Source of the DNA: an uncultured Opitutia bacterium
GTDB lineage: Bacteria > Verrucomicrobiota > Verrucomicrobiia > Opitutales > Opitutaceae
Direction: 5' to 3'
NCBI GenBank assembly: GCA_903877135.1
Contig: CAIRCN010000004.1
Coordinates: 124,001 to 188,000 of the forward strand
DNA length: 64,000 nt
Positions 47,890-49,648 of this stretch are shown here, piece after piece. Each line of letters opens with the position of its first letter. Position 1 is the first letter of the stretch. A model generated the notes under the pieces. The model saw only the letters and a program-made list of their open reading frames with translations, did not search any database and was not told the origin of the DNA. Made by a program: the position numbers and the translations under genes.

Positions 47890-48264
47890 ATGACACCCGC
47901 CGCGTATCTTCCGTTTCTGATCCAGGCTCTGCTGGCCGCCGGTATCACGGGCCTGGTGATCGGCGCGAGCCACTTCTTCGGCCAGCGCGCGAAGCCTTCC
48001 AAGATCAAGGACTCGGCCTACGAGTGCGGCATCGCGGGCGACGGCCTCAGTCACACGCGCTTCTCGGTGAAATTCTACCTCACCGCGCTGCTCTTCATGC
48101 TCTTCGACCTCGAGGTCGTGATTCTAATTCCGTGGACGTTTATCTACCGTGAATTTCTCGCCCACCAGATTTCCATCCTCGGTCCAATCCTGTTTTTCAT
48201 CGGCGTTCTGGTCTTGGGGCTCTTCTACGAAATCCGGAAGGGCGCGCTCGAGTGGGAGAAGTGA
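47890..48264 (+). CDS. nuoA: NADH-quinone oxidoreductase subunit A
   Basis: 124 aa complex I membrane subunit with three helices (about 8-26, 62-84, 94-115). Family motifs are the loop AYECG (about 44) and RFSVKFYLTALLFMLFDLEVV, including the essential acidic residues of the second helix. It stands apart from other nuo genes: none of nuoB-N is in the window, which is unusual because nuoA normally heads the operon. Followed 43 bp later by the EIIA-DAC gene. Confidence 0.95.
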   Translation: MTPAAYLPFLIQALLAAGITGLVIGASHFFGQRAKPSKIKDSAYECGIAGDGLSHTRFSVKFYLTALLFMLFDLEVVILIPWTFIYREFLAHQISILGPILFFIGVLVLGLFYEIRKGALEWEK

Positions 48265-48307: not shown

Positions 48308-49648
48308 ATGCGGCTCGACCGAATCATCGCACGGAGTCGCATCGTCGATCTCCACAGCCTCGACCTCGAAGGTGCGTTGCACGAGCTGCTCGCGGTGTGC
48401 GTGGAGAAATTTTCCGACCTGAAGCCAGAGATGTTGCTCAAGGGCCTGCTGGCGCGCGAAAGCACGATGACGACCTACCTCGGTCTCGGCGTCGCGCTGC
48501 CGCATGTACGCGTCAAGATGCGTCGGCGCTACATCCTCGCGATCGGCCGCAGCCGTGCGGGCATCCGGCACGACGGCGCGCTGGCAGACGAGCGGGTGCG
48601 GCTCATCATGATGCTGATCGCGGGCGAAAACGCGCGCGATTACCTGCAGGTGCTCGCCTCGATCGCGCAGCAGGTGAAGGAGGCCGACCTCGTTGACAAT
48701 CTCGTTAACGCGCCCGACCTCGACACCCTCCACGAACGACTTGTCGGCGATTTTGGCGGCATCCGCCCGGTGCAGGCGCAGCAAAACCGCGTCAACCGCC
48801 TGATGTTTCGCGAAGCTGAGCGTGTGGCGCGTGGTGCCGACTGCCGGGCGCTCATGGTGTTTGGCGACACGTTCATCGGCGGTATCGAGGCCGGCGCACT
48901 GCCGTCGAAACTCAAAACCATCCTCGTCACCCGCAATCTGATCGAGCCGGGCGAGGACCAGAAGGAGTTTTCCGAGACCATTCAGGTGCGCTCGTTCTCG
49001 AGTCAGCGCCTCGCCCAGTTGCGCAGCGCGATCCTCGTGGCGCTGATGCGCGGTGTGATCGCCTTCAAGGACCGCGTCTGCTGTATCGGCGGCGTCACCG
49101 GCAGCAACCAGTTCGACACGCTCATCGTCGTCGATATCGACAAGGAATTCCAGACGCTCCTCACCCGCCAGACTGACCTTCTGCCCGCCGACGTGAAGCC
49201 CGAGGTGCTCGAGCGCGTGATTGCCGTCGCGACGGAGCTCGCCGTCGAGGGTCGCGAGGGACGCCCGGTCGGCTGCCTGTTTGTCATCGGCGACAACGAC
49301 CGGGTGGCGGAACTGACAAAGCCACTCGTGCTCAATCCGTTTTATGGTTACAAGGAGGAAGACCGTAACATCCTCAATCCCTTCATGGATGAGACGGTGA
49401 AGGAGTTTTCTTCGATTGATGGGGCGTTCATCATCCGGGGCGACGGGGTGGTGGAATCTGCCGGCAGCCTGATACAGGCCACGGCCAATGACTACACCCT
49501 GCCGAGCGGTCTTGGCAGCCGCCACGCCGCCGCGGCTGCCGTCAGTGTCGCCACGCAGAGCATTGCCATTGTCGTCTCGTCCAGCACCGGCCAAGTGACG
49601 CTGTTCCGCCGCGGCGTCATGCTGCCGCTGACGGAAAAGCGCCGCTGA
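48308..49648 (+). CDS. PtsN-like EIIA domain fused to a diadenylate cyclase
   Basis: 446 aa with three parts. Residues 1-145 resemble PTS EIIA type 2/EIIA-Ntr, with the phosphorylatable His66 in GVALPHVRV. Residues about 165-290 resemble the pyruvate-kinase-C-like module found in archaeal DacZ cyclases (ALMVFGDTFIGG). Residues about 325-440 match a DisA_N/DAC domain: DGA at 371-373 and RHA at 405-407, where most DACs have RHR, plus IVVSSSTGQVTLFRRG. The domain predicts synthesis of c-di-AMP from two ATP. No membrane helix, so cytosolic. Activity needs testing because of the altered RHR. Confidence 0.85.
   Translation: MRLDRIIARSRIVDLHSLDLEGALHELLAVCVEKFSDLKPEMLLKGLLARESTMTTYLGLGVALPHVRVKMRRRYILAIGRSRAGIRHDGALADERVRLIMMLIAGENARDYLQVLASIAQQVKEADLVDNLVNAPDLDTLHERLVGDFGGIRPVQAQQNRVNRLMFREAERVARGADCRALMVFGDTFIGGIEAGALPSKLKTILVTRNLIEPGEDQKEFSETIQVRSFSSQRLAQLRSAILVALMRGVIAFKDRVCCIGGVTGSNQFDTLIVVDIDKEFQTLLTRQTDLLPADVKPEVLERVIAVATELAVEGREGRPVGCLFVIGDNDRVAELTKPLVLNPFYGYKEEDRNILNPFMDETVKEFSSIDGAFIIRGDGVVESAGSLIQATANDYTLPSGLGSRHAAAAAVSVATQSIAIVVSSSTGQVTLFRRGVMLPLTEKRR

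Follow-up and report, generated by a model that had tools for sequence, protein, structure and literature searches.

Diadenylate cyclases and potassium control

Two routes of potassium control are known in bacteria, the PTS-Ntr and cyclic di-AMP (c-di-AMP), a messenger that acts as a potassium signal. In the former, the EIIA-Ntr domain normally reads the energy and nitrogen status of the cell. The latter is the product of diadenylate cyclases (DACs), most of which carry an RHR motif. To our knowledge, the control of diadenylate cyclase activity is poorly understood for most classes of the enzyme. One of these classes, DacD, was reportedly defined in a review by Corrigan and Gruendling in 2013. 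Braun et al. 2019 (PMC6741144), who cite Corrigan and Gruendling 2013 for the DAC classes, list under DacD Lacunisphaera limnophila, Coraliomargarita, Puniceicoccaceae and members of the Opitutae. In the literature searched, DacD was found together with c-di-AMP in this one paper only, and neither biochemical or genetic work on DacD nor any account of an EIIA-DAC fusion or its regulation was found.

The protein described here is encoded in a window of 64,000 nucleotides of DNA from an uncultured bacterium of the Opitutaceae (Opitutales), and it joins an EIIA domain, a DacZ_P domain and a DAC domain in a single chain. Archaeal DacZ, as in Haloferax volcanii (NF041371), has the same order of DacZ_P and DAC, and its model matches residues 236-438 of the fusion with 121.3 bits. 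The equivalog cut-off, however, is 430 bits, far above this score, and the fusion has an additional EIIA domain, is bacterial and does not lie beside mscS. CdaA (DacA) of Bacillus and Listeria shares the DAC fold and the presumed role of potassium control via riboswitch, KimA and Kdp. Unlike CdaA, the fusion has no membrane domain (no CdaA_N match) and scores 31 bits against TIGR00159, for which the cut-off is 188.8; within the order it takes the place of CdaA. The DisA model NF010009 gives 22 bits against an equivalog cut-off of 201. EIIA-Ntr (PtsN) of the Proteobacteria has the same fold and active histidine, but is free-standing, whereas here the domain is fused to a nucleotide cyclase. All NCBIfam matches to the protein (PtsN, FruA-type IIA, DacZ, CdaA and DisA) are weak and sub-threshold, and thus no existing equivalog model names it.

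The fusion nevertheless seems to belong to a class that has a name already, DacD, an assignment made by the clade of the listed members and not by their sequences: these members come from the Opitutales/Puniceicoccales, where the fusion is near-universal as the sole DAC. The original prediction held that the known bacterial synthases carry no EIIA domain; as the listed DacD members come from this clade (PMC6741144), that statement was wrong or incomplete.

Architecture of the fusion protein

The dacD-like gene is one complete open reading frame of 446 codons on the + strand (48308..49648), with its ATG at 48308 and its stop codon ending at 49648. The EIIA-Ntr (PtsN-like) domain spans residues 1-150 (48308..48757, +), and the Pfam profile PTS_EIIA_2 (PF00359) matches residues 15-143 with 61.5 bits (E 1.1e-16; cut-off 27). 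It is followed by DacZ_P (PF21755), a probable sensor domain, at residues 160-283 (48785..49156, +; 100.5 bits, E 6.8e-29, far above the gathering score), and by the catalytic DAC domain (PF02457) at residues 312-437 (49241..49618, +; 77.5 bits, E 8.3e-22; cut-off 27). In an AlphaFold2 model of the protein (pLDDT 86.8), residues 1-148 match the fold of Escherichia coli EIIA-Ntr (PtsN, 1a6j) with a Z score of 21.2, and residues ~290-445 match DisA and CdaA with Z scores of 14-16. Among the matches listed, which the EIIA and DAC domains fill, there was no pyruvate-kinase-like fold match for DacZ_P. His66 (48503..48505, +) lies in the PtsN-type active-site motif GVALPHVRVK, where it aligns with the phosphorylatable histidine of PtsN. 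The PF00359 and PF02457 matches are both far above cut-off, and the three modules, their boundaries and coordinates and the intact His66 had all been correctly read in the original prediction.

The domain scores, together with full-length homologues of the same architecture, 36-84% identical and found in most of the order, rule out chance, assembly error or a frame artefact as the source of the fusion. The protein is real and conserved, and very probably functional.

The gene lies 43 nt downstream of nuoA (Oxidored_q4; 47890..48264, +) on the same strand. This gene for complex I chain 3 is found 12-230 nt upstream of the fusion gene, again on the same strand, at 73 loci in 15 of the 24 families of the order. 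No gene for a kinase partner adjoins the fusion gene. Elsewhere in the window, three tRNA genes identified with Rfam are clustered at 2539-2886 on the - strand.

Distribution in the order and beyond

The Opitutales are bacteria of soil and water. Of 132 genomes examined from the order, 119 have a match to the fusion protein, most of them with the full EIIA-DacZ_P-DAC arrangement, and in the Opitutaceae genome of the window it is the only DAC gene. Among the matches listed, those from named organisms belong to Opitutus, Opitutaceae and Cephaloticoccus and are 76-85% identical. In other orders of the class, almost every sampled genome has instead a DAC that scores as CdaA type. Outside the order but within the phylum, the fusion recurs at ~33% identity in two families, f18 (G004) and f24 (G035, G160 and G248), and in the f24 genomes CdaA is present beside it. 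A simple history would be that the fusion is old in the phylum and later became the sole DAC of this order. Viral origin or spread was considered and rejected, viral contigs having yielded no relative.

Other arrangements of these domains were observed. Stand-alone DacZ_P-DAC proteins of ~300 aa that read RHV or RHL are encoded at L122-L125 (G364, G335, G173 and G324), in three of the four genomes as a paralogue beside the fusion. A CdaA of ~400 aa with a C-terminal extension past the DAC domain, and with RHA for RHR, is encoded at L269 and L270 (G347 and G224), in G224 beside the fusion.

Evidence for an active cyclase

The strongest sign of a live cyclase is its functional context, which includes a riboswitch in its own genome and the joint loss of DAC and phosphodiesterase described below. 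A c-di-AMP riboswitch (RF00379) is detected in this genome with 57.4 bits against a gathering score of 38. It lies 110 nt before a gene whose product, of 651 aa, is homologous to KimA, a potassium importer (E 6e-65 against PDB 6s3k). After the kimA homologue, the same strand carries kdpA, kdpB and kdpC, with kdpD, identified by sequence, beyond. A search for a transcription terminator after the riboswitch gave no site on the transcribed strand. In Bacillus thuringiensis, a c-di-AMP riboswitch shuts off kdp, the kdpFABC operon (PMC6488665). The riboswitch described here is likewise upstream of a kdp locus, but the kimA homologue stands between it and kdpABC, and the genome is that of a member of the Verrucomicrobiota with kdpD and an EIIA-fused synthase.

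In other genomes of the order, the riboswitch stands before the gene for KimA, for a TrkH/KtrB-type transporter or for a Band_7 protein. It was detected in just 7 of the 132 genomes, and hence other c-di-AMP receptors must exist. An unusual target is found in G085 (L279, 3890-6106), where the genes downstream of the riboswitch encode a Band_7/SPFH-domain protein and what is likely to be a carbonic anhydrase.

Further evidence concerns the catalytic motifs. The DGA motif (residues 371-373; 49418..49426, +) includes the catalytic Asp371, and the place of RHR is taken by RHA (residues 405-407; 49520..49528, +). D371, G372, R405 and H406 do not vary in any of the 117 homologues of the order that cover the region. 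The third position of RHR, in contrast, is free in these 117 proteins, being A in 93, S in 13 and M, T, V or G in the rest, but never R. Fused homologues outside the order have R (G004) or T (f24) at this position, and two CdaA proteins of the order read RHA. As the third position varies in this manner, the DAC site probably tolerates RHA, which would then not be a broken site. The full RHR would so be typical of DACs and not defining, and the alignments indicate that its third residue may be dispensable in a large natural lineage.

It had been proposed that the RHA is either tolerated or the mark of a sensor. The first of these stands, whilst the second, a catalytically dead DAC that binds c-di-AMP or ATP, is highly improbable and is rejected as the main reading. 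It has in its favour the RHA where RHR is expected, but it would require a dead enzyme to be the only DAC in a genome with a c-di-AMP riboswitch, and to have kept D371, R405 and H406 invariant while the third position changed. Moreover, although that position is never R in the order, PgpH-type phosphodiesterases are found in 116 of its 132 genomes and are lost together with the DAC.

This joint loss is the second element of the functional context. PgpH is absent in 9 of the 13 genomes without a DAC, in which the absence was checked with PF02457, compared with 7 of the 119 others (Fisher p 3e-7), and among genomes at least 90% complete it is absent in 7 of 10 compared with 3 of 95 (p 6e-7); by family, the losses represent about three separate events (f3, G304 and G348), such that the p-value overstates their independence. 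Five genomes of family f3 (G102, G337, G358, G378 and G389) have neither DAC nor PgpH, an apparent complete loss of c-di-AMP signalling. In the window genome no PgpH was found by either profile or protein query, and a 359-aa DHH protein encoded beside truB may be a candidate c-di-AMP hydrolase there. Considered together, the invariant residues, the riboswitch context and the co-loss of DAC and PgpH make it very probable that the fusion is the active and sole c-di-AMP synthase of this genome.

The EIIA domain and the fate of His66

The window genome encodes an EI of ~586-587 aa with three PEP-utiliser domains (G000:C56) and an HPr with an intact GIHARP site (G000:C20). A search confined to the PTS_EIIC family, among the EIIC families, gave no match in this genome. 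With EI and HPr present and PTS_EIIC absent, the phosphorelay looks regulatory. At L128 (2920-3717) and L126 (3896-4480), in the window genome and G389, the gene for a P-type cation ATPase is immediately followed by another EIIA-like gene, separate from the fusion.

Across the order, the histidine tends to go where EI has gone. In EI-positive genomes, His66 is kept in 81 of 90 domain-bearing proteins, which span ~20 families and identities down to ~36%, compared with 10 of 28 proteins in EI-negative genomes, the others having Y, C, N, K or L in its place or missing the domain. In family f82 the histidine has been replaced by Y and in f83 by C, N or L, while in f80 and part of f81 the EIIA domain is gone or truncated and DacZ_P-DAC stays. 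In the EI-less f82, the remaining HPr (L162-L166) has lost its active-site Arg, reading GLHATP, GLHAIP or GLHTAP, and has kept the GKSIMGLMML region, alongside the H66Y change in EIIA.

In a loss-only likelihood model, which used the DAC tree of the protein itself as the species tree, His-loss has a rate of 0.82 without EI and 0.076 with it (likelihood-ratio p 0.002), so that His66 or the entire EIIA domain is lost ~11 times faster where EI is missing. With equal branch lengths, the same model gives p 3e-5. A test of EI against His66 on independent pairs gave p 0.5-1 from ~5 such pairs, too few for power. Genome reduction is a confounder in these comparisons, as the majority of genomes without EI have only 0.8-1.1 Mb and show decay in general. 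The co-decay of His66 and EI backs control by the PEP phosphorelay, but does not show it, and it likewise lends support to the original suggestion that phosphorylation by the PTS could set the level of c-di-AMP.

The correlation has exceptions. Two EI-positive families are without His66, f64 (Y66) and f3 (S or C66), the latter including genera that have lost c-di-AMP synthesis. Since His66 has been lost in these families and is kept in several EI-less genomes, phosphorylation is not needed everywhere. The two EI-positive families without the histidine would also fit an active synthase whose EIIA domain is a structural or stabilizing remnant with no present regulatory role. This seems improbable in view of the retention of His66 in 81 of the 90 EI-positive proteins and ~20 families, and of the faster decay where EI is gone.

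The main rival to a gated cyclase is also an active synthase, in which EIIA would be an output or docking module acting on partners such as potassium transporters or KdpD. Fusion would then only keep the two potassium regulators together, with the cyclase tuned by DacZ_P. Free PtsN acts by binding to partners, and in Sinorhizobium unphosphorylated PtsN1 binds KdpD (PMC9239096); kdpD is present in the window genome. The retention of EIIA with His66 replaced throughout families f64 and f82 similarly points to a function that needs no phosphate transfer. On the other side, the loss of EIIA from f80 and part of f81 with DacZ_P-DAC kept implies that the cyclase works without EIIA, and the co-decay with EI implies that the phosphate matters in most lineages. 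We consider the docking module a real but rather unlikely alternative.

A proposed PTS-Ntr-gated diadenylate cyclase

On balance, it seems reasonably probable that this Opitutaceae bacterium has the fusion protein as its sole c-di-AMP synthase, that this enzyme is a diadenylate cyclase gated by the PTS-Ntr, and that its product acts on potassium supply. Within this scheme, catalytic activity, phosphorylation of His66 and its effect on the cyclase rate are steps that we infer. EI and HPr, whose genes lie at other sites in the genome, would take phosphate from PEP and hand it on to His66 in the EIIA domain. The DacZ_P-DAC half would dimerize or oligomerize and join two molecules of ATP to form c-di-AMP, and the phosphorylation state of His66 would be relayed via DacZ_P to alter cyclase output. 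c-di-AMP would then act on potassium supply, at least via the ydaO-type riboswitch upstream of kimA, kdpABC and kdpD. As a guess, the unphosphorylated form is slightly favoured as the active one, in which case low PEP or nitrogen sufficiency would restrict potassium uptake. The chances are about even that the PTS-Ntr and c-di-AMP routes are merged outright, with the phosphate on His66 directly setting the rate of the only cyclase and its product switching kimA-kdp by riboswitch.

Implications

As the sequence class is already named, the novelty lies in the link of the PEP phosphorelay to c-di-AMP and in the evidence for that link. Because the only cyclase of the order carries an input domain that is well understood and can be phosphorylated, its control is directly testable, and the case concerns bacteria whose c-di-AMP has received very little study. 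If the cyclase is gated, a single molecule would join carbon and nitrogen status, conveyed by the PEP phosphorelay, to potassium homeostasis, and an entire bacterial order would possess a phosphorelay-gated diadenylate cyclase. One protein may thus tie the fuel state of the cell to its potassium supply.
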